From Anaeropeptidivorans aminofermentans (GTDB lineage Bacteria > Bacillota > Clostridia > Lachnospirales > UBA5962): a DNA stretch of 64,000 bases. The notes under the pieces were generated by a model. It had not been told where the DNA came from and made no database searches. It was given only the letters and a program-made list of their open reading frames with translations. Position numbers and translations under genes: made by a program. Shown in pieces: positions 1,416 through 31,664 of this stretch (position 1 is the first letter of the stretch; the number at the start of each line of letters is the position of its first letter). Location of the stretch: NCBI RefSeq assembly GCF_940670685.1, contig NZ_OW711693.1, positions 3,286,001 to 3,350,000 on the forward strand, given 5' to 3'.

Positions 1416-1428
1416 GAAAACAATGACC

Positions 1429-1758: not shown

Positions 1759-1784
1759 AAATAAACACCTCGTCTTTCTAAATT

Positions 1785-6929: not shown

Positions 6930-6950
6930 TTTCTGCACCTCCTGTGTCAT

Positions 6951-8885: not shown

Positions 8886-9111
8886 TTAACCTATCTGATT
8901 GCATAAATAGTTCCACAGCGGAAAATCATTACTGTATATCTCATATGTATAATTTTCGGCGTCTTTGGAAAAGCAGATTGCGGCAGGTACCATAATCTGA
9001 AAGTCAAAATCCATATTATATTGTTCCGCCATTCTTTTTCGCAATGTACTTGCAGGCTTTCCATATCCGGCAACAATCCTCTATATCAAACAGAACGGCT
9101 TTAATTCCCAT
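8886..9111 (-). pseudogene. Decayed last gene of the PTS operon
   Basis: A good start (ATG at 9111 with AAAGGAG upstream) opens MGIKAVLFDIEDC, which resembles motif I of HAD-family phosphatases, but the frame stops after about 31 codons. A second frame then reads MAEQYNMDFDFQIM and continues to NYLCNQIG before a stop at 8886. The two halves suggest a frameshifted, internally deleted gene. The HAD assignment is tentative. Confidence 0.5.
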
Positions 9112-9164
9112 AATGGTTAGCTCCTTTCAAAGCACTTTAGATATAGCCTGTTTATCGTAAATAC

Positions 9165-9575
9165 CTAGAACTTATCAGGCTCCATCATGCTTTTCATATA
9201 TCCGTTCATATATAGAATCTGCTCTTTGCTTAAGCTGATGTGCTCCTCAATATTGTCCTCATGTATTATTTTGCCGGAGAAAATTATTGATAAAATTAGC
9301 GGAAGGTTCATGCCGGCCACAACATGGACAGGGTAGATTTGGGACAGCTTTACTGCAGCTTGATTCACGCTGCCTCCCATAATATCTGTAAAGATTAAAA
9401 TATCCTTCTCATTAATGGCGCTGATTTTTTCTGTTAAAACCTGCTCAAAATCCAAGCCATCCTCATAAGCGCATATGTAAAAAACCCGCTCATCAATAGC
9501 AGCATCAAAAAATTTTAAGGTGTCATACATGCCTTTGGCAAGGTTGCTGTGAGACGCCAAAATGATTTTATTCAT
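9165..9575 (-). CDS. PTS mannose-family EIIA component
   Basis: 136 residues, preceded by TTTTGGAGG. The start MNKIILASHSNLAKGMYDTL matches the mannose (PTS-EII Man) IIA fold, with the phospho-accepting histidine in ASHSNLA at position 9. A later ILIFTDIMGGSVNQAA segment is the conserved core strand and loop. It receives phosphate from HPr and passes it to EIIB. It is the 3'-most intact gene of an operon coding for SIS protein, EIIB, EIIC, EIID, a decayed kinase, the aldolase and this EIIA, all on the minus strand. Confidence 0.88.
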   Translation of the reverse strand: MNKIILASHSNLAKGMYDTLKFFDAAIDERVFYICAYEDGLDFEQVLTEKISAINEKDILIFTDIMGGSVNQAAVKLSQIYPVHVVAGMNLPLILSIIFSGKIIHEDNIEEHISLSKEQILYMNGYMKSMMEPDKF

Positions 9576-9610
9576 ACTTTATCCTCCAAAATGATTTAAT
9601 ACATTGGTGA

Positions 9611-10459
9611 TTAAGCTTTGCCGGCGCTTCCGCAAACCTCAATTTTATTCATGACATATTTCTTAACTTCTTCTCTGCCCTTTGAGCTGTATTTTTTGGG
9701 GTCAATGGTATCAGGTACTTCCCTAAGGACCTCACTAACACCTTTTGAAAAGGCAATCCTTAAATCGGTAGCATAATTCACTTTGCAGATTCCCCGGTGA
9801 ATACACTCTCTAACCGTATCATCAGGAACGCCTGAAGTTCCATGAAGCACAAGGGGTATGGTAACCACTTTTTGAATTTCACTTAGGCGTTCCAAATCCA
9901 ATTTGGGAACCCCTTTATAAATACCGTGGGCGGTTCCTATGGCCACTGCAAGAAAGTCAACACCTGTTTTTTCAACAAACAGCTTTGCCTCTTGCGGGTC
10001 TGTATAGCGGGCTCCGCCGCCGTCCAAGTCATCTTCTTTACCGCCTACCTTGCCAAGTTCAGCCTCAACCGGAATACCCGATGAATGACAGGCCTCCGCC
10101 ACCGCTTTGGTAACAGCAATATTCTTATCAAACACTTCATAAGAGCCGTCAATCATAATAGAAGTATATCCTGCTCTAAACGCCTGCATGGCAAGTTCGA
10201 AACTGTTTCCATGGTCTAAATGAATAGCTATGGGAACGCTTGCCTTTTCGGCTGCCGTTCTTGCATTGGCATAATAATATTCCAGGCTCCCATACTTTAT
10301 TGTGGTCGGCGTTGTCTGTAATATAACAGGCGACTGAAGTTCTTCCGCGGCAGCCACTACTGCCTGTATCATTTCCATATTCTCCACATTAAACGCTCCG
10401 ATGGCATATTTACCTTTCTGAGCGTCCAGCAATATTTTTTTTGTTGTCACAAGCGGCAT
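9611..10459 (-). CDS. Class II tagatose/fructose-bisphosphate aldolase
   Basis: 282 residues with GAGGG upstream of the ATG. Zinc-binding motifs of class II aldolases are present: HLDHG near residue 83, VEAELGKVGGKEDD near 133, and HGTSGVP near 207. The length and the YTDP motif fit the KbaY/GatY/FbaA family. In this operon, with a SIS-domain protein and a mannose-family PTS, I infer tagatose-1,6-bisphosphate cleavage to glyceraldehyde-3-phosphate and dihydroxyacetone phosphate, as in N-acetylgalactosamine use. The family cannot be split from fructose-bisphosphate aldolase by motif alone, so I leave the symbol blank. Confidence 0.88.
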   Translation of the reverse strand: MPLVTTKKILLDAQKGKYAIGAFNVENMEMIQAVVAAAEELQSPVILQTTPTTIKYGSLEYYYANARTAAEKASVPIAIHLDHGNSFELAMQAFRAGYTSIMIDGSYEVFDKNIAVTKAVAEACHSSGIPVEAELGKVGGKEDDLDGGGARYTDPQEAKLFVEKTGVDFLAVAIGTAHGIYKGVPKLDLERLSEIQKVVTIPLVLHGTSGVPDDTVRECIHRGICKVNYATDLRIAFSKGVSEVLREVPDTIDPKKYSSKGREEVKKYVMNKIEVCGSAGKA

Positions 10460-10474
10460 AGCAAACCCTCATTT

Positions 10475-10870
10475 CTATAATCTATATATCTTTTCATTTT
10501 TAATAAGATTTTCATAAACGGCATTATCAAAATTACCAGTTTTTGTGAAAAGTGCACTGGCTGCTGCAATGGCAACTGCATATTTATTAATACAGCATCT
10601 CGCTTTACCCCGTATAGTTCTAAATCTATAATGGATTCCATTCTCATTCAGGAGTAATTTCAGATATCTCCCGTTAAACCCGCCGATAAACCCTGCTCTG
10701 CACCTACTCGCCGCATTTTAAACTTCTGCCGACATTGAGGCCCTTTCCGCCGGCTGAGTTTTGGCACGACGACTCTCGCATTACTGCATTGCTTTCGATT
10801 GGATATTCATAGAATATACTTTATCAATGGCGAATTTACTGTGATTGTTATTGTCACTTTTACTGCCCGG
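10475..10870 (-). pseudogene. Decayed PfkB sugar-phosphate kinase
   Basis: In broken frames on the minus strand the pieces of a 1-phosphofructokinase/tagatose-6-phosphate kinase are readable in order: ITVNS-IDKVYSM near 10840, SAGGKGLNVGRSLK near 10740, GFIGGFNGRYLKLLLNENG near 10650, then a jump to the C-terminal YAVAIAAASALFTKTGNFDNA and stop at 10475. The central ATP-binding half is missing. Position between EIID and the aldolase fits the kinase step of a tagatose-phosphate pathway. Confidence 0.8.
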
Positions 10871-10962
10871 CAAAAGATAGAGAGAAGAATTTTTCCAATA
10901 TCTTTGTTTATAAAGTAAGGAATGAGTCAAAACAGGCTATATTTTGACTCATTCCTTTAATG

Positions 10963-11793
10963 CTATGATGCTATCGGTAAGAAAAAGGGCAGCCCTTCAA
11001 TCAATACGATGATGATGCCGAAAAGCAATAAATAAAACATCAGTTTCGTTGTGCTGATCCCTTTTTTCATTAAGGCGTACACACCAAAGGCCAAGCCAAG
11101 AGGCAAAAGCTTCGGCATCAAACTATCAAATAAGGATTGAACTTCAAAATGAGTCTGGCCAAAATTGAGTGTGATAGAAGTCGTAAAATTTATCATACTT
11201 GCAATCATGGCGCCAACCACCGTTGTACCAATAAGCCTTGCGCCACTGGTTACTTCTTCAATGGCTCCGCCGGACATGGCATTTGACAAAAACTGTACAC
11301 CCTGCTTATAGCCAATATCCAACCCCTTCCAGCGAATGATAAAATGAGGGATATTATGTACTAATAGGAATATAATAGGGCCAAGAAAGTTGCCTTCAAG
11401 GGCTAATGCAACACCAAGCCCAAGGCCGATGGTGCGAAGGGTTCCAAAGAAAAGCGAATCTCCGATGCCTGCAAGCGGCCCGATAAGGGCTGTTTTAATA
11501 CCTGTTATGGCGGATGCGTCAAAGTCCGAATTTTCATGTTTTTGTTCTTCCAGCGCAATAACAGCCCCTGTGATAAATGTTACAAACTGGGGAGAGGTAT
11601 TAAAGAACTCTGTATGGCGCAGCAGCGCCTCCTTCAGCCCTTCAGGGTCGTCATGGTATATTTTTTTAAGTGCGGGAACCATTCCGTATAAAAATCCTAC
11701 AGCCTGCTGCCTTTCATAATTGAAACATCCCTGCAACGCCAGGGAGCGCCAGAAAGTAGAGCGAAATAGCTTTTTATCCATTATTTCAGACAT
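10963..11793 (-). CDS. PTS mannose-family EIID component
   Basis: 276 residues. The N-terminus (KKLFRSTFWRSLALQGCFNYERQQAVGFLYGM) is typical of the IID subunit, and GIGDSLFFGTLR is the conserved IID loop. Hydrophobic segments occur in the middle and at the C-terminal end (LMFYLLLFGIIIVLIEGL). IID forms the membrane channel with IIC and takes up the sugar. Its start lies 11 bases past the IIC stop, so the two are co-translated. The downstream gap to the aldolase holds the decayed kinase gene. Confidence 0.92.
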   Translation of the reverse strand: MSEIMDKKLFRSTFWRSLALQGCFNYERQQAVGFLYGMVPALKKIYHDDPEGLKEALLRHTEFFNTSPQFVTFITGAVIALEEQKHENSDFDASAITGIKTALIGPLAGIGDSLFFGTLRTIGLGLGVALALEGNFLGPIIFLLVHNIPHFIIRWKGLDIGYKQGVQFLSNAMSGGAIEEVTSGARLIGTTVVGAMIASMINFTTSITLNFGQTHFEVQSLFDSLMPKLLPLGLAFGVYALMKKGISTTKLMFYLLLFGIIIVLIEGLPFFLPIAS

Positions 11794-11804
11794 AATTGTC
11801 CCTC

Positions 11805-12551
11805 CTATGCATTTGCGGACTTTTTATTCAGATACTGGACATAAACAATAATCACTGCCAATATAGTTATGCCAAGGGTCGACAGCCCCATAAATGCAGA
11901 CAGCAGGAACCCTAAAAATAGATAAGGGGCAGTTGATTTGTCAAAAAGGAAGCTCATAAGCAGTGCCATACCAAGGGCCGGCAGTAATGAACTGGAGCGG
12001 GTTAATCCATCCAATATAAACTGCGGGATATATTCGATAATACTCTGAACTAAATCAGACCCGAAATAACAGCCCAGAAATACAGGAACGGCCGTTAAAA
12101 CAAAGAATACCCAGGCACCATACCACATGGTTCTGTCACAGCCTTTTGTATCGCCTTCCCTAGCATATCTCTCAGCCATATGATTAAATTGCGCATTAAT
12201 AACGCGGCTCAATATACCTAATGCCTGGCCGAGTATGGCCATTGGCATCGCCAGCGCCATAACCTGCTCTACACCTAAACCGCTTTTAATTGAAAGGACC
12301 ACTCCTATAACGCCGCCAATCAGTGCATCTGGCGGTGTTGAGGCGCCAATGCCCACGATTCCGAGAAATACTAATTGCAACGTTGCGCCCATAATCAATC
12401 CAGATTGCGGGTCTCCAAATATCAACCCTACTAAAACTCCCGCTACAACGGGTTCATGCAAAAGATTTTGGCCGAATATACGCCCGTCCCAGCGAAGAAG
12501 TCCTGCCAATATCGAAACTAAAATACACTGAACTAAAAACATAGAATTCAC
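11805..12551 (-). CDS. PTS mannose-family EIIC component
   Basis: 248 residues with several membrane segments. Recognisable IIC features are the first helix with GLLRWDGRIFGQNLLHEP, VGLIFGDPQSGLIMGATLQL and the GIGASTPPDALIGGVIGVVL loop. It forms the sugar-translocating part of the membrane complex with IID. It lies between EIIB and EIID, with about 120 bases between EIIB and this start. The family includes permeases for mannose, sorbose and N-acetylgalactosamine, and sequence alone does not choose between them. Confidence 0.92.
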   Translation of the reverse strand: MNSMFLVQCILVSILAGLLRWDGRIFGQNLLHEPVVAGVLVGLIFGDPQSGLIMGATLQLVFLGIVGIGASTPPDALIGGVIGVVLSIKSGLGVEQVMALAMPMAILGQALGILSRVINAQFNHMAERYAREGDTKGCDRTMWYGAWVFFVLTAVPVFLGCYFGSDLVQSIIEYIPQFILDGLTRSSSLLPALGMALLMSFLFDKSTAPYLFLGFLLSAFMGLSTLGITILAVIIVYVQYLNKKSANA

Positions 12552-12675
12552 CGCTTTCTATAGTCTATCTGCCATTTTAAAATGGCCGCCGAACACTACA
12601 GTAAGAAAACAGAAAAAATAAAATCATGCTGGGGCTTGTCCAGTTTATATTTTATAAAACAAGCCGTTATGCCTT

Positions 12676-13158
12676 TTATTTATTCCATATTGATAAAATG
12701 TCGTTATAGAGTAATTTCTTATCGGATGTTGTCGCTTGCAGATAAATATTTTTTCCAAGGCTGTGAATTGATTTAATGTCTTCCATTTCGGCCTCATTTA
12801 GAAAAAACTGCATGCCAATCTTTTTCCTTCCGTCTGCCGACGGCATTGCGCCGAGATTAACGTCGGTAATGTCACAGTTCTTTGCCAGCTTCAATGCTTC
12901 CGCTGTCGTGCCGGTTACCAGCAAAATACTTTTCCGTGCATTCTGGGCGTCATTTAAATAAGAAATCGTATCGGAAGTCGATAGGATAACCAAAACTGTA
13001 TTTTTAGGCTTACCGAGGTTTAATGTCATGTGCATCAGCTGATCATTTGCATATTTATCCGATGCTACCACAATAGTATCCGCCAGCGTGTGGGAAACCC
13101 AAAATACTGCGACCTGCCCATGAATCAAACGGTGATCAATTCTTAATAATTTTATCAC
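12676..13158 (-). CDS. PTS mannose-family EIIB component
   Basis: 160 residues from a GTG start chosen because AGGAGGGAGG lies just upstream; an ATG 42 bases further out has no site and would add a tail unlike the family. The N-terminus IKLLRIDHRLIHGQVAVFW contains the histidine of RLIHGQV, the phosphorylated residue of IIB. It passes phosphate from EIIA to the incoming sugar on the inner face of the membrane. The gene follows the SIS-domain gene by about 57 bases. Confidence 0.92.
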   Translation of the reverse strand: MIKLLRIDHRLIHGQVAVFWVSHTLADTIVVASDKYANDQLMHMTLNLGKPKNTVLVILSTSDTISYLNDAQNARKSILLVTGTTAEALKLAKNCDITDVNLGAMPSADGRKKIGMQFFLNEAEMEDIKSIHSLGKNIYLQATTSDKKLLYNDILSIWNK

Positions 13159-13215
13159 TGCCTTTTCCTCCCTCCTTAAATATTTATACCTATATTTCAT
13201 AAAATGCTTAGGCTA

Positions 13216-14298
13216 TCATACCTTACTGCTCATTTTTTGATGGAATGCAGGGTCGCTCGGTACATTGGGATTGATACCCTTATCCTTTGCAATACGATAA
13301 GATAAAATTTGAAGCGGTACGATATACTCCATTGTATAAAAATCAGCATCATCAACGAAATCGTATAAAAAGGCTTTTTTATCTTTTATGCCGCTTTTCT
13401 TATTGCCAATAACAAAGTTATGTTCCGTTTTCTCACTGCAGTAATCTTTAAGTTTTAATATACGCTCAGCATAAGGCCCTTGGCTCATTACATATACCAT
13501 ATAACAATCCGGATTAATGGAATGATATATTCCGTGCATGAATTCTTCCAACTCATACCAGAATACTCCGAACCTTCCGTTCTCAAGTATTTTTAATGCG
13601 CCTTCCTGTATATTGCCAAAGTTATCGTCATAACCAATTACCAGCATACGCTCTGCCTGCTTCATTTCCTCGGACTGGAGGTCATACCAAGCGTCCGCGG
13701 CTTCAGCAATGGGGGTTAGATTGTCTGCCGTTTTTAACATCTGAGCTATTTTTTCTTCATATTCTTCTTCTGTTATGTATCCCCATTTTCTGGCGGCTTC
13801 AATAGCACAGAGCATCAATATCGTCATTTCCGTAATATAGCTTTTTGATTTCGGGCTGACATCTTCAATACCATAATCAAGGAATAAAATATCATCGGCG
13901 TACTTTGCGATTTCGGAATCCCTGGCATTGGTAGCCGCCAGCGTATAGAATCCGTCCCTTTTTGCCTTATCTACCGCTTTTATTGTGGATACGCTACCGC
14001 CAGTTGCTGAGATTGCAATTAGTATATTACCTTCATCAAAAAACATCTCGCTGTCAAGAAAGCGTATTGGATAATGGACAATTACCTTTTTTCTTAACAG
14101 CTTTTCCATCATTCTTCTGGCTGAATGACCTGAATAGCAACTGGTGCCTGCCCCGGTAATATGAATTGTATTGCATTTTTCAGGGTCAAAGTAATCTACA
14201 AACCCTTTGACGGCTTCCTTTCTATTCTCGATTACTTTGCGAATAACTGCTGAAGACTCATGGATATACTCATGCATATCCCCTTTGAATGTTTTCAT
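13216..14298 (-). CDS. SIS-domain sugar-phosphate isomerase/deaminase (AgaS-like role)
   Basis: About 360 residues. Two ATGs lie 9 bases apart; GGAAGGG is placed 9 bases before the inner one, so I start there. The two SIS folds are visible: the first with HITGAGTSCYSGHSARRM and the later AISATGGSVSTIKAV; the second with ILENGRFGVFWYELEEFMHG. This resembles the isomerizing half of glucosamine-6-phosphate synthase and the AgaS/FrlB group that deaminates or deglycates amino-sugar phosphates. As first gene of the PTS-aldolase operon it probably turns the imported amino-sugar 6-phosphate into a ketose phosphate. Confidence 0.85.
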   Translation of the reverse strand: MKTFKGDMHEYIHESSAVIRKVIENRKEAVKGFVDYFDPEKCNTIHITGAGTSCYSGHSARRMMEKLLRKKVIVHYPIRFLDSEMFFDEGNILIAISATGGSVSTIKAVDKAKRDGFYTLAATNARDSEIAKYADDILFLDYGIEDVSPKSKSYITEMTILMLCAIEAARKWGYITEEEYEEKIAQMLKTADNLTPIAEAADAWYDLQSEEMKQAERMLVIGYDDNFGNIQEGALKILENGRFGVFWYELEEFMHGIYHSINPDCYMVYVMSQGPYAERILKLKDYCSEKTEHNFVIGNKKSGIKDKKAFLYDFVDDADFYTMEYIVPLQILSYRIAKDKGINPNVPSDPAFHQKMSSKV

Positions 14299-14544
14299 AA
14301 TATTCATCCCTTCCGATAAAAGTATGTACTAATTATATATTGTCTTTACATTTTATTCAATTATAAATTATAATGTAAATATATTTTGGTTTATATGTAT
14401 AAATAAATTCATTGCTTTTGTGCACAATTAAAATTTAGTATGTATTGATTTAATTGAAAATAGTGTATAATATAGCTACTTATCATGGCATTGTTATATT
14501 TTACAAATAAAATTACACTGCTAATTGAAGAAAGAGGTTATGCA
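14299..14544. promoter_or_regulatory. Divergent promoter region between SIS/PTS operon and GntR gene
   Basis: AT-rich DNA separating the divergent SIS gene and GntR gene. An inverted repeat TTTACATT (14345-14352) / AATGTAAA (14372-14379) lies close to the PTS-operon side. A TATAAT at 14466-14471 is a plausible -10 for the regulator gene. I infer that the GntR protein acts here; which sequence it binds is not shown. Confidence 0.55.
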
Positions 14545-15300
14545 ATGAAACAAGCGAAGCATGAGGAGATTCAATCCTATATAAAAAAGCGTATCATGTC
14601 CGGAAGTTACCCTGTAGGCCACCAGATTGAAACAGAAGTGCAGCTGTGTGAAAAATTTAAAGTGAGTAGACAAACTGTGAATAAAGCTTTACAAAGCCTT
14701 GCAAATGATGGTTATATTGATAGAAAGCGCGGAAAAGGCTCTTTTGTTATAGGGCCTTTTGTTCAAAAAAGTATGCGCCGCCATACAAGCTTTACAAAAG
14801 ACTTGGAAAGTGTAGGCATAAAACCAGGGTCACGATTGTTAAAATATGACTATATAAGTGCAAAAGACGAGCCGGAAGTCGCATCCGCATTGCGGCTCGC
14901 AGAATCCGATTTTTTGCATTATTTTATTCGATTACGTACTGGAGATAATATTCCCATAGCTATCAGCTATTCTTATTTATCTGCACAGGCTGTTCCCGAA
15001 ATTGACTTTTCAGCGCTTTCTTATTCTCAGGACAAGATGCTGCAGGACATGAATATTCATCATAGAAGGGCTATTTATCAGCTCAGCGCCTGCTCTCCCA
15101 CCGAGGCGCAAATGAAACTTCTGGAAATAGAACACCATACTGCCCTTTTCAGAAACCATCATATAACATTTAACCAATATGACATCCCTTATGAATATGT
15201 TGACACCTATTATATAGGCTCTAAATATACCTATAATATTGAAGTGAGTACGGAACTATCTGAAGTTCAAGAGCAAAATGAACAGGAAAAATATAAATAA
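14545..15300 (+). CDS. GntR/HutC-family transcriptional regulator with UTRA domain
   Basis: 251 residues from the ATG preceded by AAAGAGG at 7 bases; an earlier in-frame ATG has no ribosome binding site. Residues 1-70 are the winged helix (KFKVSRQTVNKALQSLANDGYIDRKRGKGSFV), which binds DNA. The remainder is a UTRA ligand-binding domain (FIRLRTGDNIPIAISYSYL ... HITFNQYDIPYEYVDTYY), which in this family senses a sugar phosphate. Its divergent position next to the PTS operon suggests that it represses that operon until the sugar phosphate appears. Confidence 0.93.
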   Translation: MKQAKHEEIQSYIKKRIMSGSYPVGHQIETEVQLCEKFKVSRQTVNKALQSLANDGYIDRKRGKGSFVIGPFVQKSMRRHTSFTKDLESVGIKPGSRLLKYDYISAKDEPEVASALRLAESDFLHYFIRLRTGDNIPIAISYSYLSAQAVPEIDFSALSYSQDKMLQDMNIHHRRAIYQLSACSPTEAQMKLLEIEHHTALFRNHHITFNQYDIPYEYVDTYYIGSKYTYNIEVSTELSEVQEQNEQEKYK

Positions 15301-15435
15301 AACTGTATAAAGTATATTTTTGAACCGCTGATATAAGTGTTTCCCACAATAAAAGGTACATAAATTTACCGTGTGGTGTAAATGCCTCTTTACGCTATGA
15401 GTATCGTATAGGTATTGGTATAATAAACATAAAAA

Positions 15436-15475
15436 GCAGCAATTCACCTAAGCTTAAGTGAATTGCTGCTTTTTA
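15436..15475 (+). terminator. Terminator downstream of the GntR gene
   Basis: GCAGCAATTCAC pairs with GTGAATTGCTGC, followed by TTTTTATG, preceded by AAAAA, so it may work in both directions. Confidence 0.85.
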
Positions 15476-15573
15476 TGCCATTTATTTCTTTAAAAGGTTT
15501 TCGTCACCAGAGTTTAGATTGCAAAAATCTATTTGAAAACAGTAATGAAGCATAAGTTTTGTTAAATCATCAC

Positions 15574-15995
15574 TTAGAAATCCACACTGTCTCTTAAAAC
15601 ATATGCTACCGCCATTGCCATGTCATCAGATTTAGTTCGAATTAGTACGCCGCCACTATAATTAGAAATTCTCTTTAGCTCTTTAATCAAATATTTTGAG
15701 TTTTTACGCTGAAATACCCGAAGAAATGCTATGTTGAGTAAAGAAATGCCTCTCACCCTGGGAATAAATTATTGTTTGTGCGTATTCTTTAAATATCCGA
15801 TAAATCAAAGGAAAAATTATTATAACTATTAATTTTCTTCTTTAGCGATATTGTTTGTGCATAGATATTGGGCAAAATAAATCTAAAAGCCCCTTCCACA
15901 TTTTCAAATATTGGTTGCAAGTGAAAGCCTTTATAGGCGCTTATAGTTCTACTTAGGCCTGTTCGAAGGTATTTTTGTACTCTTAGCTACTGTAC
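15574..15995 (-). pseudogene. Remnant of an AlbA-type ATP-binding protein and an unknown tail
   Basis: At about 15840-15990 the minus strand reads LRTGLSRTISAYKGFHLQP and EGAFRFILPNIYAQT. This is the same protein segment found in the larger pseudogene at 19625-20908 (GLGKIISSYKGHSLQPKFE, EGAFRVTLPNIHAQ). A short open frame at 15574-15756 ending VAYVLRDSVDF follows it on the same strand and is unassigned. Both are fragments. Confidence 0.55.
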
Positions 15996-15999
15996 ATAA

Positions 16000-17160
16000 A
16001 TCCCAAAGCATCTTGCTCCTTGCGACGTTCCTTTTGAAAGCATTCTTTTATCTGTACTTTGCTATAACCAAGCTTTTCACAAGTTTCCCGATGACTGTGC
16101 CCTTATTTTTAGAGATTTTATTTCTTCCTCAAACTTTTTTGCTTACCCTATACTCTCAACATAATTTTACCGGCTCTTGTAGTTTATATCCTATCAACAA
16201 GAGGTGGGTGGCTGCAATGTCTATTTTTATTGGTATAGTATATTAAGTCATATGGATAAAAGCAGAGCCATCTTGTGTATTATCGAAAACAAAGTCATAT
16301 ATATAAATGGTGTCAATACCGTATTCTTTTGCATATTCATTTTTAAGGCCTGCTGTTGCGGCACCATAATCCGGCTATAATTTCCTTCCTTCTGAAGCAA
16401 ATTTACTACCTGGTCATAGTTAATATCTTCAAATGTATCAATTTCCTGACGTGGCGTGTCATTATTGGAATGAGTGTTAAAATCCCCAAACATGTATTTT
16501 TCTCAAATCCATAATCAATTGAAGAAAACTGAACGGCTGCTTTAGGCTTCTCCTGGCAGCTTCAACAGATTTCTCACTGCTTCCGCTGTTATTGCTTCTG
16601 TTAGTGCCTTAAGTGTATTCTTTTAAATATAGGTATTGTATACATAAAGTAAGCAGTAGTATGGCCTACATGTTTATGCTTTTTTGCAAAGCTTTCAAAG
16701 GCTTTTTGAACGGGAATATAAGTTAAAACGAAGGACTTTATTCAAAAAATGTGAAGAAAACTCGGGGTTGTTATAATGGCAAGAAAAATCACACTAGAAT
16801 GTCGAGCAAAGCGAAAAGAACTGTTTGAATTGTTACCTCATGAGCCGGTAGCACGGATACCTATGGTTTTCCACTAATATGTAGCTAAGGGGGGTAAGCT
16901 TTTTTCCGGACTTACACCACATAATTTTATTGTTCTATTTGCACCTTTTTGACTTTACACAAAGTTTGGGATTTTACTAACTATGAAGTCTGGTAATTAA
17001 TGATAGCATCTTCAGCAGCCGCCTGCACTCATCACTGCGTCCGTACGGTACTACCAGCTAGATCAGTTTTTTAGACTTTGCGTTGAGTGTTTCTTCTATA
17101 GCTATCCCATATTCTTTACTTCCCCATTAAGCTGTACAATTTTCTAGGGCAGGTTTACCT
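16000..17160. other. Decayed DNA including a frameshifted unknown gene
   Basis: On the minus strand at 16248-16493 one frame reads MFGDFNTHSNNDTPRQEI and on to LLQKEGN, after which the reading passes into another frame as PDYGAATAGLKNEYAKEYGI and ends DGSAFIHMT. It looks like one frameshifted coding region of unknown function. A 33-codon plus-strand frame at 16776-16877 (MARKITLECRAKRK) has no ribosome binding site. The rest shows nothing I can name. Confidence 0.4.
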
Positions 17161-21370: not shown

Positions 21371-22770
21371 TTATGGCCAAATACGTGTAGCGCCCTGAAC
21401 TCTTAAATTATTAATCCCATCTTTCATAATCGTGACAAAGTTTTCATTCAAATCCGTTACGACAACACCGTTACCCTGTATATAGAATTTTGCTTATCCT
21501 GGAGCATTAGAGCTATTTGGTATTTTTTTGCCCATACCCATCCATTCCCCTTGTCGAACTTCAGTTGCATTACCATAGATATCGTTTATTGTATTTCTCA
21601 GGATATTTCTTACATTAGGGTCTGCTGGATCTAATCCATAATCTTGTGCGTGCTTTCCGATCTTTTTACCAAACTGACCATCATCAATGTTTAACTTCCT
21701 ACTTGAATCCTTAGCACTCTTGCTGGTTTTACTAAGAAGTTCTGCCTCGTTTGATAAACCCAAAGCTTTACTGTTATTAACATAAAATTCCTTAATTTCT
21801 TTTGCATATTGGGAACCTTGAAGAAATTCTTCTTTAAAATACTTATCAGCTTCATCAACCTTTTGAAGAGAATTTAAGGCACCGCTGTTTTTGGCGGTAA
21901 AATAGCTTGTAACACCAGACAGGCCTTCAAGAATAAGCCCTGTAAATATACCCCCTACAGTAGTACCCAGCTGAGTAGTGTTATAGGTGGCAATAATCCA
22001 AGCTTTATCTTTATTGCTTAGCTTGTCCTCATAGTGTTGAAAGTTTACTTTACTCATTTCTCCGTGGGACTCAAGAATATCATAGATAGCTAAGCGGTCC
22101 TCAATAACGGGAAGCTTTTTGTACTTATCATAATTAAGGAGAAAGTCTATTTTCTTGACTACCTTATCTGAGAGGAGAGCATCCTCAAACAGCTGCTCAA
22201 CAATGAGCTTATCTGCATATCTTTCATAAAGCTCTTCTATATAATCAGGGACATTTTGCAAGTCATTTCTTCTTTCATCTTTGCTTATATAGGTTTCAGT
22301 CGGATTGTAAAAGAAGGACAAATCCTCAACAGGTAAAGTTTCTTTCAGCATATTGATAAATGCTTTCCTGTTGGGGAATGTTTCCTGAGTGTCCTTGTCT
22401 TTATCTTCTGAGATTAAAACATCTTTAAGTATATTTTGTTTTTCATCTTCTAAAAAATTATCGCTGCCAGTTGCAATCTCGCATTTGCAATTGGGGTGCA
22501 TAGGGGGAAGATTGATTCCCTCCTCGGCTTTATCAATAGATAAAATACTGCCGTTAAGGGCCTGACATTTTTTGCAGGCGTCTGAAGTGCTGTACGAAAC
22601 AGGTAGTGCTTATAACCTCTTAGCCTAGCCACATACAAGGCTAATTTAACTTCCTGTTCTTTAACCTTGTCCTGCACCTTATTAATAAAGCTTTCTATTT
22701 CCTTATCAAATTCACGGTGTATTCTGTTTAATATGCTGCCAATTTTGTAATTTCTGCTGGAATAGCCAAC
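21371..22770 (-). pseudogene. MuF-domain polymorphic toxin, truncated, frameshifted and stopped
   Basis: A diverged relative of the toxin at 1785-3383. The head domain starts only at the YSSRNYKIGSIL segment (22770), a frameshift near 22590 breaks it within the CKKC region, and the frame then runs through HPNCKCEIATGSD and the linker to a tip with FGKKIGKHAQDYGLDP. A TAA at 21494-21496 interrupts the tip; the same frame continues as AKFYIQGNGVVVTDLNENFV and ends at ATRIWP (stop at 21371). The GKHAxDYG and FVTI features resemble BECR-fold RNase tips. With no start region left it cannot be expressed normally. Confidence 0.8.
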
Positions 22771-23055
22771 CAGTACACAGGCTCGGCGGGAGAGGGCTTT
22801 GTGGATTATTTGAGACAAACAGAAAACACCATTATTGTCGGAACAAATACAAAGGGCGCTTATTCCACCGGAAATGTTGTCCAAGTAAAGCTTCCCTATA
22901 GTAAAATTGCTATCTCCTGCGGCTTCAATCTACATCTGGAGCCGGATTTGCCAAGTATCGAGGGTATTGGCATAGAGCCTGATATTTGGGCACCACCGGA
23001 TGAAAGCCTTGAAAGAGTCATTAAATTCATAGAGAATTATGGATTAGCGGATTAA
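22745..23055 (+). pseudogene. C-terminal fragment of an S41-family peptidase
   Basis: The plus strand reads QYTGSAGEGFVDYLRQTENT, the active-site serine region of S41 (C-terminal processing/tricorn-like) peptidases, followed by IIVGTNTKG and the closing GIGIEPDIWAPP. Everything upstream of the catalytic segment is replaced by the truncated toxin head on the other strand, so the two genes are joined head to tail by a rearrangement near 22765. It has no start site. Confidence 0.75.
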
Positions 23056-23331: not shown

Positions 23332-23447
23332 AGTAACCGCAAGGCTAAAAACCTTGCGGTTACTATGTTTTTTGGTGGAGATAAGCGGAATTGAACCGCT
23401 GACCTCTTGAATGCTATTCAAGCACGCTTTTATATATTGGTATCCCC
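23332..23447 (-). tRNA. Degenerate tRNA-Ala gene with terminator (pseudo-tRNA)
   Basis: On the minus strand GGGGATA pairs with TATCTCC, followed by ACCA, with an intact T arm (AGCGG/CCGCT) and an anticodon stem CTTGA/TCAAG. The loop reads ATAGCAT, giving AGC where I expect GGC, and the D arm has decayed. The tRNA body is 23372-23447; at 23332-23363 a strong hairpin (AGTAACCGCAAGG/CCTTGCGGTTACT) follows. Probably not functional. Confidence 0.7.
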
Positions 23448-24081: not shown

Positions 24082-25704
24082 TTATAAAACATCAAAATTG
24101 ATTACCTCATCAGCTATTTTAACAAAATCTGAATGATGAGTAATAATAATTATAATTTTATTTGCCTTCTCCTTTTTTAAAATATCATATAAATTCCATA
24201 TACTTTTTTTATCTAATGCTGAAGTTGGTTCATCCATAATTAATAATTCAGCCGTCTTGTTGAGTGCACCAATAATTGCTATTTTTTGCTTTTCTCCACC
24301 AGAAATATTATCAGGGTTTCTTTGTATGGAAAAATCTAATCCTTCGTCTAAGGTATCTATAAACTGATTAAAGTTAAATTGTGTTGCTATATTTCTGAAC
24401 CGACTATCACTTTCAATATTAAGATTATCTCGAACAGAATCGAAATAGAGCTCTGGCTCTTGAAGCACTACTGCACATTTAGATTCCCGAAATTGACTCA
24501 TATTGATATCTTTAATATTAACTCCATTTATTTTTATTTTTCCAGAATAATTATAGAGTAGACCGAGCAATAAAGTATATAATGTACTTTTTCCAGAGCC
24601 ATTTTTACCTGAAAGCACATAAATTTTGTTTTTTTCTAATTTTAAATTTAGATTGCGTAATACCATTCTTTCATTATCATATGAGAAACTTAAGTCTGAA
24701 ATTTCAATATTATGGAGCTCTCCAATTGATATCTTTCCTTCTATTTCTCTTTCAGCATCAAGTATATTGCGTAGCCTATGGTAAGATACCAAAGCGCTTT
24801 GATAGGATTCGCTATAATTTAAAGCGTAAGATATATTAGACATTAAAATCTGAGAGTATGTATTGATTATAATAAATGTGCCTAAGGTCATGTTACTGAT
24901 AAGTATTTCCTTCGCTGAATAAAGAAAAATAATACTGTTAATCATATATTTAGCTATACTATCAATTATTCCATATGTCTGCTTTATCCAAATATATTTC
25001 ATTTTTGAAGATAGAAATGGCCCAAAACTTTGAATAACTTTAGAGTCTGTGCTATCAAAAATTCCATTCAACTTAATATATTTAATGAACTCCAGTTGAT
25101 GGTGCATCTTAGAAAAAAAATTGTTCTGAATTTCTCTAAATTTAAAATTTGCATTATATAATGGTTTTTTAAAAAAATTGTAAAACACAAAATAAACAGG
25201 TATGAGTCCAAAAATCAGAATAGTCATTATTTTGTTTAGCTGAAACATATATATAGCAATATATACAAATGAAAGAACTGTGGTTAAAATAGACATTATG
25301 CTTTGAATTGCAAATGCAGTTAAGTTTTGTGAATCGTTATTTATTCTTTCGGTAAAATACGCTGATGAATTCTCACTTAAATATGATAGTGGTAATCGTT
25401 TCAAATGTGTAAACACATGATATTTTATGTCAAATTCAGCCTTTGTATAAAGTTTTGCTGATGTAATATCATTTATAAAATCAGCTAATATTTGAATTCC
25501 CCAAGAAATAAATAGTATAATCAATATTCTAAAAGTATTGTTTTCATATTCTATTAAAGTATTTTTAAGTGAGTCAACAAATATCCCAACCAAATAAGGA
25601 TTAAATAACGATAATATCCATATTAGTGATGATAGAAAAAAAAATAGAAAAAAAATACTTTTATGTTTTAATAAAAAAGGAAATATAAATTTATATAATG
25701 ACAT
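24082..25704 (-). CDS. ABC exporter (membrane domain fused to ATPase) of the RiPP cluster
   Basis: 540 residues. The N-terminal two-thirds hold about six membrane helices (FLLKHKSIFFLFFFLSSLIW onward). The ATPase has Walker A GKNGSGKST, the signature ISGGEKQK, Walker B LLIMDEPTSALD and the switch histidine in ITHHSD. It exports as a homodimer. There is no C39 peptidase domain at the N-terminus, unlike many bacteriocin exporters, so leader removal must be done by another protein. The gene starts 9 bases after the radical SAM stop and is the last gene of that operon. I infer export of the matured peptide; multidrug-type export is the alternative. Confidence 0.9.
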   Translation of the reverse strand: MSLYKFIFPFLLKHKSIFFLFFFLSSLIWILSLFNPYLVGIFVDSLKNTLIEYENNTFRILIILFISWGIQILADFINDITSAKLYTKAEFDIKYHVFTHLKRLPLSYLSENSSAYFTERINNDSQNLTAFAIQSIMSILTTVLSFVYIAIYMFQLNKIMTILIFGLIPVYFVFYNFFKKPLYNANFKFREIQNNFFSKMHHQLEFIKYIKLNGIFDSTDSKVIQSFGPFLSSKMKYIWIKQTYGIIDSIAKYMINSIIFLYSAKEILISNMTLGTFIIINTYSQILMSNISYALNYSESYQSALVSYHRLRNILDAEREIEGKISIGELHNIEISDLSFSYDNERMVLRNLNLKLEKNKIYVLSGKNGSGKSTLYTLLLGLLYNYSGKIKINGVNIKDINMSQFRESKCAVVLQEPELYFDSVRDNLNIESDSRFRNIATQFNFNQFIDTLDEGLDFSIQRNPDNISGGEKQKIAIIGALNKTAELLIMDEPTSALDKKSIWNLYDILKKEKANKIIIIITHHSDFVKIADEVINFDVL

Positions 25705-25713
25705 AATCTAGCC

Positions 25714-27021
25714 CTATCTTTGTTCTGACAGACACCAATTTTCATATACGAATTTTAATTTATCCTTATAACTATGTAAATCATGGCAGCATGCATAGTT
25801 ATCTTTATTATTTATTCTAAAGTAAGCACAACCGCCTTGACAGCATGGTAAATATGTACAGGCTTTACATTCATCAGACAAATCTAAGCTCAACCATTTT
25901 GTCTGCTCATAATTATATACTGGACCTGTTTTAACGCTGCCTATATTGTTATCTTTAACATTGATTTTGTTCCAACACGAGTATAATAATCCATCTGGAG
26001 CGACAACGTATTGCCCTAACCTTTCAGCACCACAATATAGATGCTTTTGTAAAGGATATAGTCTATTTCTAAATTCATCTGGGGATAGTCTGTATTGCAT
26101 TTTTGCAACCTCAGTATCTAACTCTCCAAACCTTTCCATGTTAATCATATACTTTTCTTTATTAGCATGAGTTTCAGAGGTATTATCAACGGGAGCTAAA
26201 TAAAAGTATGGATTTACCCCCCATCCCATATCATTAATAAAATAATCAATCAATTGTAATATATCCTGTTCATTTTTAGAATCAACATTAATACGCACAT
26301 TAATATCCATAACATCTTTTGCCTGTTCAATATTACTAATGAGCAATTCAAAACTATCTTCGCCATTTTTTAATATTCTTCTTTTATTATGGATATCTTT
26401 AAGCCCATCTATAGTGATTTGTGCAAATGCAACTTTTTTTCCTCTCAACTTTTGAGCTGTCTCTCGATCCAATAATGCACCGTTCGTAATAATTCCAGCA
26501 CCATAGTCAACATCATTTTCGCTACATATTTTTATTAATGCATCCGAAAGATTATAAATTATTTGCGTTTCTAATAAGGGCTCTCCTCCGAACCATGTAA
26601 CTTCAAGATGTTTGCATGAGTTTCCTTTGAGATACTTCTCTACAAATTCAACTAAATCATGCTGGGTTTCCTCACTCATTACCTCCTTTGTATGTTTTTC
26701 AAAACAATATGGACATGCCATATTACAATACATGGTTGGAGCAATGGTAAGGCTAACTGCCTCGGTATCATTTCTACTTAAATTCCTCAAAATAGAGATT
26801 TGACCAACTTCGTCAATATCCTCTTGGACAATAAACCCAGCCTTTTTCATTAAATCTATTATTTCTATATTTGCAGCATGCTCATCTATATTCTCAATAT
26901 TATTGTATATTTCTAAACCTTCTTCATCTAATTCGGTGAAAATACCTGAATATGTATTATACATTAAACTATATTCCGAATTTTTGTCCACTTCAATATT
27001 ATAAAAGGATTTTTTATACAT
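25714..27021 (-). CDS. Radical SAM/SPASM peptide maturase
   Basis: 435 residues from an ATG with TTGGGGGC upstream; an in-frame TTG at 27033 is less likely. Residues 1-75 resemble the peptide-recognition region of such maturases. The radical SAM motif CNMACPYC (CX3CX2C, residues 99-106) is followed by WFGGEPLLE. The C-terminal SPASM region has cysteines in YCGAERLG, LYSCWNK, CKACTYLPCCQGGC and ACCHD, enough for two auxiliary iron-sulfur clusters. Enzymes of this layout form thioether bonds from cysteine side chains in RiPP precursors (sactipeptides, ranthipeptides). The six-cysteine peptide gene lies just upstream on the same strand, so I infer that this enzyme crosslinks it. It resembles the Clostridial Cys-rich-peptide maturase family (CcpM) from memory. 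Confidence 0.9.
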   Translation of the reverse strand: MYKKSFYNIEVDKNSEYSLMYNTYSGIFTELDEEGLEIYNNIENIDEHAANIEIIDLMKKAGFIVQEDIDEVGQISILRNLSRNDTEAVSLTIAPTMYCNMACPYCFEKHTKEVMSEETQHDLVEFVEKYLKGNSCKHLEVTWFGGEPLLETQIIYNLSDALIKICSENDVDYGAGIITNGALLDRETAQKLRGKKVAFAQITIDGLKDIHNKRRILKNGEDSFELLISNIEQAKDVMDINVRINVDSKNEQDILQLIDYFINDMGWGVNPYFYLAPVDNTSETHANKEKYMINMERFGELDTEVAKMQYRLSPDEFRNRLYPLQKHLYCGAERLGQYVVAPDGLLYSCWNKINVKDNNIGSVKTGPVYNYEQTKWLSLDLSDECKACTYLPCCQGGCAYFRINNKDNYACCHDLHSYKDKLKFVYENWCLSEQR

Positions 27022-27303
27022 AATTGCCCCCAATAATTAATAATTTATATTACTAGTTCACTAGCTAATAAATTATCTTTTCAAAAAGTTATCTTAGCTT
27101 TTTAAAGTTGGATTATCTGTTTAATAAACGAATACGACTAATATAAGACATTAATTGGGTAAACATTAAATCAATTAACAAAATAATGTACCTTTTATTT
27201 CCCCTATTTTTTTAAACTTACACTATACTTAGTTTTTCACTTATATATTTAGCTAAATATCAGCCTTCTTCTGTATATAAAAGCAACATAACGCTATAAG
27301 TTT

Positions 27304-27347
27304 CTTAGGAACTACTGATTTATTGTAATAGGCCAGTAGTTCCTAAG
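27304..27347 (-). promoter_or_regulatory. Hairpin between precursor and maturase genes
   Basis: CTTAGGAACTACTG and CAGTAGTTCCTAAG form a perfect 14-bp stem with a 16-base loop, 62 bases downstream of the precursor stop. No T-run follows on the minus strand, so it is more likely an mRNA-stabilising or processing hairpin, or a partial attenuator, than a full terminator. Such hairpins often keep precursor mRNA more abundant than enzyme mRNA. Confidence 0.75.
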
Positions 27348-27408
27348 AGACAATTAAGTATAAGCCCATAAGAATATGCAAGTACTTAATCCTATTAAGA
27401 TAGCGTTC

Positions 27409-27528
27409 TTATCTACTTATGCAATGGCTGCAAAAGCAAGCCTTTTGACAACCAGCATCGCAAGCATTACATTTAATAGTGATCAGTGTAGGCTTCTTAA
27501 CAAGAATTTCAGGATTAATGATTTTCAT
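27409..27528 (-). CDS. Six-cysteine RiPP precursor peptide
   Basis: 39 codons, shorter than usual gene-finder cutoffs. AAAGGAGGAGGC lies directly before the ATG. The leader is MKIINPEILVKKPTLITIK, 19 residues with no GG cleavage motif. The core starts at C20 and has cysteines at 20, 23, 27, 31, 33 and 36 (CNACDAGCQKACFCSHC) before ISR. Six cysteines in 17 residues with interleaved small residues is the pattern of thioether-crosslinked peptides made by radical SAM/SPASM enzymes. From memory it resembles the CLI_3235-type Clostridial Cys-rich peptides. It is first in the operon with the maturase and exporter. Bactericidal, signalling or metal-binding roles are all possible. Confidence 0.88.
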   Translation of the reverse strand: MKIINPEILVKKPTLITIKCNACDAGCQKACFCSHCISR

Positions 27529-27578
27529 AAGCCTCCTCCTTTCTCGTTATTTTTATATAATGATAAAATATAATGTTT

Positions 27579-27650
27579 GATAAAATTAAGTAGGATTTTG
27601 AGTCTGATAGAATTAAGTAGAATACTAAGTTCGATAGAATTAAGTAAGAT
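27579..27650 (-). promoter_or_regulatory. Three 27-bp-period direct repeats upstream of the precursor
   Basis: The 18-base unit GATARAATTAAGTARRAT starts at 27579, 27606 and 27633, exactly 27 bases apart, with 9 unrelated bases between units. It lies 51 bases upstream of the precursor ATG. An AT-rich segment with TATAA-like elements lies between. I infer an operator array for an activator or quorum-sensing response regulator. Confidence 0.75.
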
Positions 27651-27698
27651 GTAGGTCAGACAAAGAAATTAAATCTAGAAAGTGAAATTATTAATAGT

Positions 27699-27806: not shown

Positions 27807-29114
27807 TTAATTTAAAGATAAATATTCTACAATTGGGTCTTTCCCTAAAATATAATCTGTAACAGATATATAAATTTCTTTGTCAGGCACTAATACATTG
27901 TGGTTACCTACACAGTCAGTAATAATATCCAAATCAAAATCTTTCAAATGCTTAAAGTTCTTTGAGGATAAATTAAATTTAAACCCTGTGTTTTTCATAG
28001 TATGAAATATTGGAGCAGAATATCCAAGAAAGTTCCCTCCGGAGGGCTCCCCTAATATAGTTGCAGCTGTTGAAATTTTAAGCCATGCCACTTGCTTGGT
28101 AGCTAAAGAAAAAGTATGAATATCTGTAAGTATAATTAAGCCATTATTTTCGTTTTTATAGTCAATGATGAAGTTAAGCCACTCATCATTTAAAGAGCCT
28201 GTTCCACCCTCATTTCCCCTAAAATCAATTATAATTTTTTTAGGCATAACTTTTTCGACTCTATTTTTTAATGAAATAAAAAACCTATTTAACTCATTAT
28301 CTGTTAAAATAAGTGAGCCTACTTTAATGTAGATGCCATTTATATCTGGCATTTCACATATTATTATCGAGTTTTGGGGGTACTGTCTATAAAGCGGTGT
28401 CTCGGTTGACTCTTTTACATAAATCAAGTCAAGCTCATTTTTTAAAATCTTATACTTATCAATAAACTCTATTCTATATTCTGATATAGAACCACTTATC
28501 TTTTTAACTCCTAAATTAATGGTTTTGATATTGCTATTTATCAAATCTAATGCTTCTAACATTATATATGAGGAAATATTTTTTATAAATTTACTTTGAG
28601 CATTATAAATGTTATCATATCCCGTAAGATTTTTAAATTTTTCAAATATATCTATTATGTTATTTCCATTTATGCTTATTAACTTACTGTTAACTATATC
28701 TGCATATTTTTCCAAGTAACTTCCAACACACCAAATCTCCTTATCTAGATATTCAAAATGCAATGGTATCACTTCATTCACAAAAGGATTCTCAAAGCTA
28801 CTTTTATATATAAACTGTCCAGCACTATGACCATCATTTGGCAATGCTAACGTTTTCTGAATATTTATTTTTATATCTTTGTCATCTAAAAAGGTAATAT
28901 TTTCCTTAATTAAATCAACATTTTTTATTTTATTTTCAAATAAACTTAGCGTATCTGTTTTTATTAATACGTCATGAAAAGTACTTTTATATGTCTCTAA
29001 TTCTTCTATTAAATAATTTAAATCATCTTTCCACAATTGAATTCGTTTACTGAATTTTCTTTTATCAGTATTCATAATATTAAGTAAAGGCTTATCCTTT
29101 TTAAAATTTTCCAT
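27807..29114 (-). CDS. Cytosolic S41-family peptidase of the RiPP cluster
   Basis: 435 residues from an ATG with AAAGGAAATG upstream; a TTG start 18 bases earlier overlaps that site. No signal peptide or membrane helix is visible. A helical N-terminal part contains LALPNDGHSAGQF. The S41 catalytic half has IIDFRGNEGG, TDIHTFSLATKQVAWLKIS (with the serine of TFSLA) and LGEPSGGNFLGYS. The protein ends ILGKDPIVEYLSLN, close to the ending of the divergent partner. S41 enzymes cut proteins near C-termini or inside unfolded segments. Lying beside a precursor gene with no GG leader and no C39 exporter, it is the best candidate for leader removal inside the cell. Confidence 0.85.
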   Translation of the reverse strand: MENFKKDKPLLNIMNTDKRKFSKRIQLWKDDLNYLIEELETYKSTFHDVLIKTDTLSLFENKIKNVDLIKENITFLDDKDIKINIQKTLALPNDGHSAGQFIYKSSFENPFVNEVIPLHFEYLDKEIWCVGSYLEKYADIVNSKLISINGNNIIDIFEKFKNLTGYDNIYNAQSKFIKNISSYIMLEALDLINSNIKTINLGVKKISGSISEYRIEFIDKYKILKNELDLIYVKESTETPLYRQYPQNSIIICEMPDINGIYIKVGSLILTDNELNRFFISLKNRVEKVMPKKIIIDFRGNEGGTGSLNDEWLNFIIDYKNENNGLIILTDIHTFSLATKQVAWLKISTAATILGEPSGGNFLGYSAPIFHTMKNTGFKFNLSSKNFKHLKDFDLDIITDCVGNHNVLVPDKEIYISVTDYILGKDPIVEYLSLN

Positions 29115-29378
29115 ACTTTCATTTCCTTTCAATAATAGATTTATTTATTAATCAAAATATTAATTATTGAAAACTTTTGCATTATTATAATTTCAAACTA
29201 AAAATGGCTAACCCTTTAATTTAGATAATCATATTGTGGGAAATAAAATATACAATTTTAAAATGTCGACTATTCTAATTAAATGCTTTGACAATTTAAT
29301 GCTTTAATATATAATTTTAAGCATAATATATTTTAATTACAATTTAAAATTATTTTTTTAAAATAAGGGAGAATTTCT
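29115..29378. promoter_or_regulatory. Divergent promoter region of the two S41 genes
   Basis: Very AT-rich. For the plus-strand gene, TTGACA at 29288-29293 and TATAAT at 29310-29315 are separated by 16 bases, 63 bases before its ATG, a near-consensus vegetative promoter. I cannot place the opposite promoter with confidence. Confidence 0.75.
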
Positions 29379-30725
29379 ATGCATAAAAAAATTAAAAATA
29401 TACCTATATTTGTAGGAATCTTAACCGTTTTATTAATTAGTGTATTCGTTATAGGTAAAATCAACTTATCTCATAATGAATTTGTAGGGCCTCGCCCAGA
29501 TACTGTCAAAAGTAATGATACTGAGCGAAATATTAAATGGGTCGAAGATATTGATTATTTTAAAAAATTATTAAACGGCTATATAAGCAGAACTCTTGAT
29601 ATAAAAAATAATGAAGAGGATGCCCGAATAAGCGAAGTCTTTACTTTAGAAATTGAACGGCTTAAAAATGACATTCCCTATCTTAACAACTTTGAGATAG
29701 AAGCGAGAATACAAATGATTACAGCCTTGTTTCATGATGGTCACATGGCTACCGAATTTTTATGGGAAAGTTATTATAAAAATGCTTTGCCCTTGTCCTT
29801 TACTTTATATGAGGATGGTATATATTGTACCACAGTTTTTGATAAGTCCTATAAAAATGCCTTGAATTGCAAGTTAAATGCTATAAATGGTGTATCAATT
29901 GATACAATTTCTGATAGATTTGAAATATTTTTTACAGGTGACAATATCTATGATTCGAAATCAAAACTTAGCAGACGTATAAATTGCCCTCAGGTCCTTA
30001 AAGGATTAGAAATTATAGAAAGTATAGAAGACCCCGTAACTTTTACACTTACAACCTTAGAAGGAGATACTTTTGATTTATACGTTGATAAACGTATAAA
30101 TCAAGATATAAATCATGAAAGTTTCATTAAGAGAGATGAAGGTGATGAAGCCTTTTTTAATCGGGATGTAAAAAATGATAAAGATTACTGGATTGAATTT
30201 TTAGAAGAAAATAATATATTATATATCCGCTCCTATTATATTCCACACACCAATGCTCTTGATAAACTTAATGAAAATATTCTTAACATTTTAACAGAAA
30301 AACAGGTAGATAAAATAGTTTTAGATTTACGTGGAAATGAAGGCGGCCAAATTACACTTGAGCATAGCTGGAATGATACCCTGATATCCTTTGGCAATGA
30401 AACGGGGCATTTATATGTAATAACTGATTATGACACATTTTCTATGGGCGCTGTAACAGCGATATACTTGAAAGAGAAAGGGAATGCCGTCATTATAGGC
30501 CTACCACCTTCTGGAGGGGCCCCAAAGGTTGCGGATATGACCCCCTTTGAGCTTCCCAATTCAGACTTTATGGTAAACATTCCTCAAAACAAATTCAGGT
30601 CTAAAGTAAAAATAAACCCAAATTTAAAAGACAATATACTTGAACCTGATATTCAAACTGGTATAGATATTAATAACTATATTCATAAAACCGACCCTGT
30701 TTTAGAATTAATTAAAACCTTTTAA
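29379..30725 (+). CDS. Membrane-anchored S41-family peptidase of the RiPP cluster
   Basis: 448 residues with GGGAGA upstream. It begins KKIKNIPIFVGILTVLLISV, one membrane segment, so the peptidase half should lie outside the cell. Shared features with the divergent gene are LFHDGHMATEF, LDLRGNEGG, TDYDTFSMGAVTAIYLKEK (catalytic serine in TFSMG) and LPPSGGAPKVADM. Both end in a similar KTDPVLEL/KDPIVEYL tail. I infer a second cleavage or clean-up step after export, or immunity by degrading the peptide at the cell surface. It has its own consensus promoter and terminator, so it can be expressed independently. Confidence 0.85.
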   Translation: MHKKIKNIPIFVGILTVLLISVFVIGKINLSHNEFVGPRPDTVKSNDTERNIKWVEDIDYFKKLLNGYISRTLDIKNNEEDARISEVFTLEIERLKNDIPYLNNFEIEARIQMITALFHDGHMATEFLWESYYKNALPLSFTLYEDGIYCTTVFDKSYKNALNCKLNAINGVSIDTISDRFEIFFTGDNIYDSKSKLSRRINCPQVLKGLEIIESIEDPVTFTLTTLEGDTFDLYVDKRINQDINHESFIKRDEGDEAFFNRDVKNDKDYWIEFLEENNILYIRSYYIPHTNALDKLNENILNILTEKQVDKIVLDLRGNEGGQITLEHSWNDTLISFGNETGHLYVITDYDTFSMGAVTAIYLKEKGNAVIIGLPPSGGAPKVADMTPFELPNSDFMVNIPQNKFRSKVKINPNLKDNILEPDIQTGIDINNYIHKTDPVLELIKTF

Positions 30726-31045: not shown

Positions 31046-31427
31046 TTGTTAATAATAGAGCCATATAAAGAGCAACAGAAACAGAATAAGTTATTGCAAC
31101 CAAATGATTACGTTGATGAAGGCTATGTATTCACTCACCCAGATGGCAGGCTTATATCTCCCAATTATATAACCAAACATTTTAGGCAGTTATTAGAGCG
31201 CAATAATTTAGAGGTAATAAAATTTCACGACTTATGCCATTCATCAGCCAGCTACCTCTTGTATCTCGGATATAACCTCAAAGCAATATCAACTTGGTTG
31301 GGGGCATGGTGATATAGGCACTACGATGAATCTATATGCTCATATGGATTTGGAAGCTAAAAGGAGTATAGCAGAAAATCTTAACGATAAATTTTCCAAT
31401 ATGGCTTCTAATCTTATATATGATTAA
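31046..31427 (+). pseudogene. C-terminal part of a dead tyrosine recombinase (integrase)
   Basis: The plus strand encodes GYVFTHPDGRLISPNYITKH, then FHDLCHSSASYLLYLGYNLK and, after a shift, GHGDIGTTMNLYAHMD, ending NLIYD. Tyrosine-recombinase box II should read HxLRH; here the catalytic arginine is a cysteine. One extra G in a GGGGG run breaks the WLGHGDI frame. The nucleophile tyrosine in NLYAHMD is present, but the N-terminal half is missing. It lies 80 bases from tRNA-Gln, the usual position of an integrase relative to its attachment site. Confidence 0.88.
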
Positions 31428-31494: not shown

Positions 31495-31509
31495 TCAGTA
31501 AAAATGAAG

Positions 31510-31581
31510 CTGGGCTGGATGGATTCGAACCATCGAATGCAGGAGTCAAAGTCCTGTGCCTTACCGCTTGGCGACAGCCCA
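31510..31581 (-). tRNA. tRNA-Gln (anticodon TTG)
   Basis: A 72-base cloverleaf: acceptor TGGGCTG/CAGCCCA, D arm GCCAAGCGGTAAGGC, anticodon arm CAGGACTTTGACTCCTG, T arm GATGG-TTCGAAT-CCATC and discriminator G. CCA is not encoded. Bases 31507-31552 are the attachment core shared with 19313-19358. Confidence 0.96.
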
Positions 31582-31592
31582 TTATGAAATTA

Positions 31593-31664
31593 AGCGCGAA
31601 ACGGGATTCGAACCCGCGGCCCTCGCCTTGGCAAGGCGATGCTCTACCACTGAGCCATTCGCGC
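31593..31664 (-). tRNA. tRNA-Gly (anticodon GCC)
   Basis: A 72-base cloverleaf with acceptor GCGCGAA/TTCGCGC, anticodon loop TTGCCAA, T arm GCGGG-TTCGAAT-CCCGT and discriminator T. CCA is not encoded. It is co-transcribed with tRNA-Gln, 11 bases upstream of it. Confidence 0.96.

Follow-up and report, generated by a model that had tools for sequence, protein, structure and literature searches.

In RiPP clusters whose exporter lacks a C39 peptidase domain, the leader peptidase is, to our knowledge, often not known. A locus of Anaeropeptidivorans aminofermentans raises this question directly. Within the window, by which we mean the whole 64,000-nucleotide stretch of DNA that was analysed, two genes for S41 peptidases, here called A and B, lie close to a candidate precursor gene and to an exporter gene of this kind (Table 1). 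A sequence-only reading of the region had proposed that B, in the cytosol, removes the leader and that A, on the outside, trims or degrades the peptide, giving either maturation or self-protection. Do the two enzymes act on this peptide, and if so, on which side of the membrane?

Layout and setting of the cluster

Judged from a radical SAM (rSAM) enzyme with SPASM cysteines encoded beside a small precursor and an exporter, the locus is a radical SAM RiPP cluster. The minus strand is transcribed in the order B, precursor, rSAM enzyme, ABC protein, and the gene for A is divergent from that of B, head to head with it and pointing away. B is the only S41 gene adjoining the precursor, whose strand it shares and from which it is separated by 278 bp on the upstream side, and a search for a terminator between these two genes found none. 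The precursor had been described as flanked by the S41 genes; in fact both are on one side of it, and it falls outside the interval from 27807 to 30725 to which that description was attached.

Table 1. Features of the peptide cluster, in positions of the window.
Feature	Position	Strand	Remarks
ABC half-transporter (exporter)	24082-25704	-	540 aa; Pfam PF00664 and PF00005; no C39 peptidase domain
Radical SAM/SPASM peptide maturase	25714-27021	-	NCBIfam models; same-family homologues 42-44% identical
Strong hairpin	27300-27350	-	3' of precursor gene, 5' of rSAM gene; no U-run
Candidate precursor	27409-27528	-	MKIINPEILVKKPTLITIKCNACDAGCQKACFCSHCISR; 39 aa, 6 Cys, no GG
Three tandem 27-bp repeats	27575-27655	.	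upstream of precursor
S41 peptidase B	27807-29114	-	435 aa; DGH and TFS kept; neither signal nor membrane helix
Perfect match to a sigma-70-type promoter	29288-29315	+	TTGACA-16-TATAAT, ahead of A
S41 peptidase A	29379-30725	+	448 aa; DGH and TFS kept; membrane helix at the N-terminus

The precursor gene has a strong Shine-Dalgarno ribosome-binding site (AAAGGAGGAGG upstream), and the N-terminus of its product is similar to those of related precursors (for example MEIINQDML). No GG motif occurs anywhere in its 39 residues, and the Pfam scan of the ABC protein matched the two transporter domains alone, with no C39 domain, so that the sequence-only reading was right on both counts. The nearest NCBIfam models of the rSAM enzyme are TIGR04463 (288 bits, cut-off 525) and the Clo7bot model TIGR04334 (257 bits, cut-off 600); scoring under both curated cut-offs, the enzyme was not assigned to either family. 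The hairpin between the precursor and rSAM genes is long and very stable (z of -5.9 for the stretch 27280-27410) and possibly sets the ratio of precursor to enzyme. Also possibly regulatory are the tandem repeats, whose core motif is essentially confined, in the whole genome, to this one site.

GC content is 28% in the cluster compared to 38% across the remainder of the window, and the cluster looks like an acquired island. A degenerate tRNA-like stretch (23376-23447, minus strand) and an integrase-like fragment (31046-31312, plus strand) lie on either side of it, and two intact tRNA genes are found at 31509-31664. Elsewhere in the window, at 586-3383 and 21494-22884 (minus strand), related and partly broken genes with an MHPNCKC motif are present in several copies and resemble those of phage minor head proteins.

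The two S41 enzymes and their relatives

A and B align along their full length with 26% identity (420 aa, E 1e-37), and both genes are intact. They have in common the DGH, RGNEGG and TFS motifs and DP(V/I) tails at the C-terminus, which bears out the earlier description of two divergent S41 genes. The DxH, DxRxNxGG, TFS and GxP positions are kept in both and, in the alignment, are carried by remote relatives too; the catalytic motifs read LFHDGH and TFSMGAV in A, and LPNDGH and TFSLATK in B. By comparison with the His98/Ser236 dyad of the nisin resistance protein (NSR), the active site is predicted to consist of the DGH histidine and the TFS serine, and with these residues retained both enzymes are apparently active. 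The PF03572 score of A (43.8 bits) is above the gathering score of 24 while that of B (21.3 bits) is just below it, so B is assigned to the family through its similarity to A. AlphaFold models based on six sequences were of low quality (pLDDT 51 for B and 60 for A), and their fold matches are taken as agreement with an S41 fold only, not as proof of active-site geometry. Scanning genome contigs with B alone returned no relatives, plasmid matches were remote (below 26% identity), and PADLOC reported nothing.

The difference in topology noted before also holds. A has one hydrophobic N-terminal segment, with a maximum 17-residue Kyte-Doolittle average (KD17) of 2.91 at residue 10, whereas B has none (maximum 0.26). 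Translation of B is taken from the ATG at 29114, and a TTG at 29132 could also serve. An earlier start that would give B a membrane helix was rejected; this TTG, six codons upstream, is the only in-frame candidate and adds no helix.

The closest paralogue of A in the genome is a lipoprotein, 43% identical, encoded at 1296 kb of contig C1 and about 1.6 kb from a YcaO peptide cluster (C1:1296-1305 kb; positions 8085-16867 of locus L149). That cluster encodes two Cys-rich precursors ending in CGTRSIxR, an ABC protein, a YcaO protein (135 bits) and a membrane-anchored S41 protein. The genome therefore contains a pair of S41 genes at each of two peptide clusters. The second is like the window locus in its Cys-rich precursors, its ABC exporter and its S41 pair, one member of which is the closest relative of A; it differs in having YcaO in place of an rSAM enzyme and in that both of its S41 proteins are extracytoplasmic. 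The tree joins A, the 1296-kb paralogue and B in one clade (support 97/95), in which B is the sister of the other two, although the branch of B is long and its exact placement is less certain. B, a paralogue of A, has thus probably lost the membrane anchor.

An alternative is that B has no part in the pathway. A, or a housekeeping pool of S41 enzymes, would then process the peptide, and B would be a decaying or repurposed duplicate. The sub-threshold Pfam score of B, its long branch and its want of the export signal found in its relatives all fit this idea, as does the presence on the island of gene remnants, an S41 fragment among them. However, B is a full-length frame with every conserved active-site residue, on the same strand as the precursor and just upstream of it, and we consider a bystander role for B rather improbable. 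The fragment itself (22801-23055, plus strand) is the C-terminal part of a third S41 protein and is 44% identical to the S41 protein of a Tissierella rSAM cluster (L085).

S41 genes beside other rSAM genes

Two sources, 392 genomes belonging to the same order and a collection of genome contigs, were used to gather homologues of the rSAM gene with their flanks. Among the 144 other rSAM genes examined, and with the window excluded, an S41 gene lies within 6 kb at nine independent loci. All nine S41 genes are within 2.1 kb and none is between 2.1 and 6 kb; eight are on the strand of the rSAM gene. About 1.3 would be expected within 2.1 kb from genome density, an enrichment of about sevenfold; the corresponding P of about 1e-5 is a guide, as the S41 density was taken from a single genome and the loci were not sampled at random, and it is flattered, like the probability of 2e-4 that all nine would fall in the near zone by position alone, by a 2.1-kb limit that was picked after the data were seen. 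The taxa that show this linkage, among them Bacteroidales and Tissierella, are unrelated.

Several arrangements occur at these loci. Two have their genes on a single strand with an exporter free of C39, in the order precursor-rSAM-ABC-S41 (L043) or rSAM-ABC-S41 (L199). A third (L059) reads rSAM-precursor-S41-ABC, with the rSAM, S41 and C39-less ABC genes on one strand, and in the Tissierella locus the S41 gene is divergent, the arrangement seen for A. Wherever an S41 gene lies within 6 kb of the rSAM gene, no C39 domain was found inside that distance. It should also be noted that most such rSAM loci have no S41 gene, and that the two closest relatives of the rSAM enzyme, on short contigs, have a CPBP/Rce1 protease there instead (L041, 1026-1796; L042, 762-1625).

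The sequence-only reading had named homologues away from such clusters as part of what would count against it, and such homologues were found. A profile search of the order for A-type proteins showed 26 of 392 genomes to contain S41 homologues, and most of the twenty neighbourhoods fetched, among the matches listed, are not peptide clusters. S41 is thus a common extracytoplasmic family from which peptide clusters recruit members. The tree is in agreement with recruitment from a common family, since the rSAM-linked S41 proteins are scattered in it rather than forming one clade, with at least six label changes.

A family this common could drift near peptide clusters on islands with no shared function. 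Around nine S41 loci in the genome, A-type homologues that are mostly found elsewhere, and a low-GC island with degenerate tRNA pieces and a remnant resembling an integrase in its vicinity are all compatible with proximity of this kind. An enrichment that is confined to the near zone of rSAM genes and a linkage that recurs across distant taxa count against it, and we regard mere proximity as very improbable. The recurrence of S41 genes beside rSAM and exporter genes argues instead for a role in the peptide pathway, and the S41 enzymes at the window locus probably process this peptide, given that their relatives recur beside similar clusters.

Export appears to be the rule for these proteins. 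Among 13 cluster-linked S41 proteins compared, 11 have an N-terminal anchor, a lipobox or a signal-like segment; the exceptions are B and the protein of locus L054 (genome G144). A cytosolic S41 enzyme as a general feature of such clusters was therefore rejected (2 of 13), and a pair with one member inside and one outside was seen only at the window locus among the loci examined. The L054 protein is placed away from B in the tree, and the simplest reading is that the export signal was lost twice, independently.

Locus L054 also bears on what B may do. At 5903-7498, its signal-less S41 gene lies 19 bp after a precursor gene with an NHLP-type leader and a GG site, and the locus has an rSAM gene and a C39 exporter; strict mutual exclusion of S41 and C39 is accordingly not claimed. 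With a C39 exporter and a GG-type precursor, leader removal at L054 need not depend on S41. A cytosolic S41 enzyme can thus occur where C39 is present; this weakens the case for B as the leader remover, and clearance of leader or of unexported peptide is an equal option.

Known S41 systems and a possible route for the peptide

Among the closest characterised enzymes is SaNSR (PDB 4Y68), an S41 protease anchored in the membrane, which has a Ser236/His98 dyad and cleaves nisin, a peptide bridged by thioethers, on the outside of the cell (PMC4698656; PMC10257480). A has the same layout, with an N-terminal membrane helix (found in A and not in B), an S41 core, and histidine and serine at the expected places. 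The likeness suggests the main rival to processing, which is that A is an outer-face protease inactivating the cross-linked peptides of its own cell or of competitors, as NSR does, and that B removes peptide left inside. A divergent gene with its own perfect promoter match is what an immunity gene might look like, and Foldseek with the model of B weakly lists 4y68. However, the TASSAEM motif of NSR and the GGG before its histidine are absent from A and B, and there is no detectable sequence match between NSR and A (the A3 profile did not match 4Y68 at E values up to 1). The gene for A is in a biosynthetic cluster, whereas that for NSR lies beside BceAB and a two-component system. NSR has been described from non-producers (PMC4828448). 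Degrading its own product would moreover be costly to the cell, and most cluster S41 genes are on the biosynthetic strand. Taken together, self-protection of this kind is unlikely.

The C-terminal processing peptidases CtpA, CtpB and Prc have the S41 protease core in common with A and B. The Pfam scan found no PDZ domain in A or B, and the alignment no conserved lysine after the serine; in place of the lysine partner of these proteases there is the conserved upstream DGH histidine, as in NSR. CPAF and tricorn likewise use an upstream histidine partner. Clo7bot and TIGR04463 clusters have an rSAM enzyme with SPASM cysteines, a small Cys-rich precursor and an ABC exporter, as here; the window locus differs from them in the scores of its rSAM enzyme, well under both cut-offs, and in its two S41 genes, one of them for a cytosolic protein.

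The account we tentatively prefer is one in which both S41 enzymes act on the same peptide. The rSAM enzyme would cross-link the precursor at its cysteines, and the C39-less ABC exporter would carry the cross-linked peptide out. Anchored A would then cut it on the external membrane surface, most likely to free it of a leader that the exporter cannot remove. In the cytosol, the substrate of B would be this same precursor, or fragments of it, and B would make a first cut or else clear leader and unexported peptide. Gene content, paralogy, the kept catalytic residues, predicted topology and recurrence beside rSAM genes are what we see at these loci; from them we infer the substrates, the cut site, the order of events and the division of labour between A and B. 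That most A-type homologues lie outside clusters, and that A has its own strong promoter match and faces away from the operon, count against this account. The proposal that S41 enzymes take part in peptide maturation gains from the nine other loci within 2.1 kb and from the paralogy of A and B; the particular steps that the sequence-only reading gave to each enzyme are putative and not supported as worded.

A broader possibility, which we put forward as a speculative one, is that S41 enzymes are an unrecognised class of RiPP-processing proteases, enlisted on several occasions by rSAM and YcaO clusters with exporters free of C39, and that duplication and anchor loss have in this genome produced a two-compartment pair whose members handle one peptide on the two sides of the membrane. 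Our search of the literature, covering open papers only, turned up no account of S41 enzymes taking part in the maturation of rSAM RiPPs. If S41 enzymes do fill the leader-peptidase gap, many orphan rSAM and YcaO clusters could be expressed and their products made accessible, and the pair described here would offer a clean system for separating maturation from self-protection.
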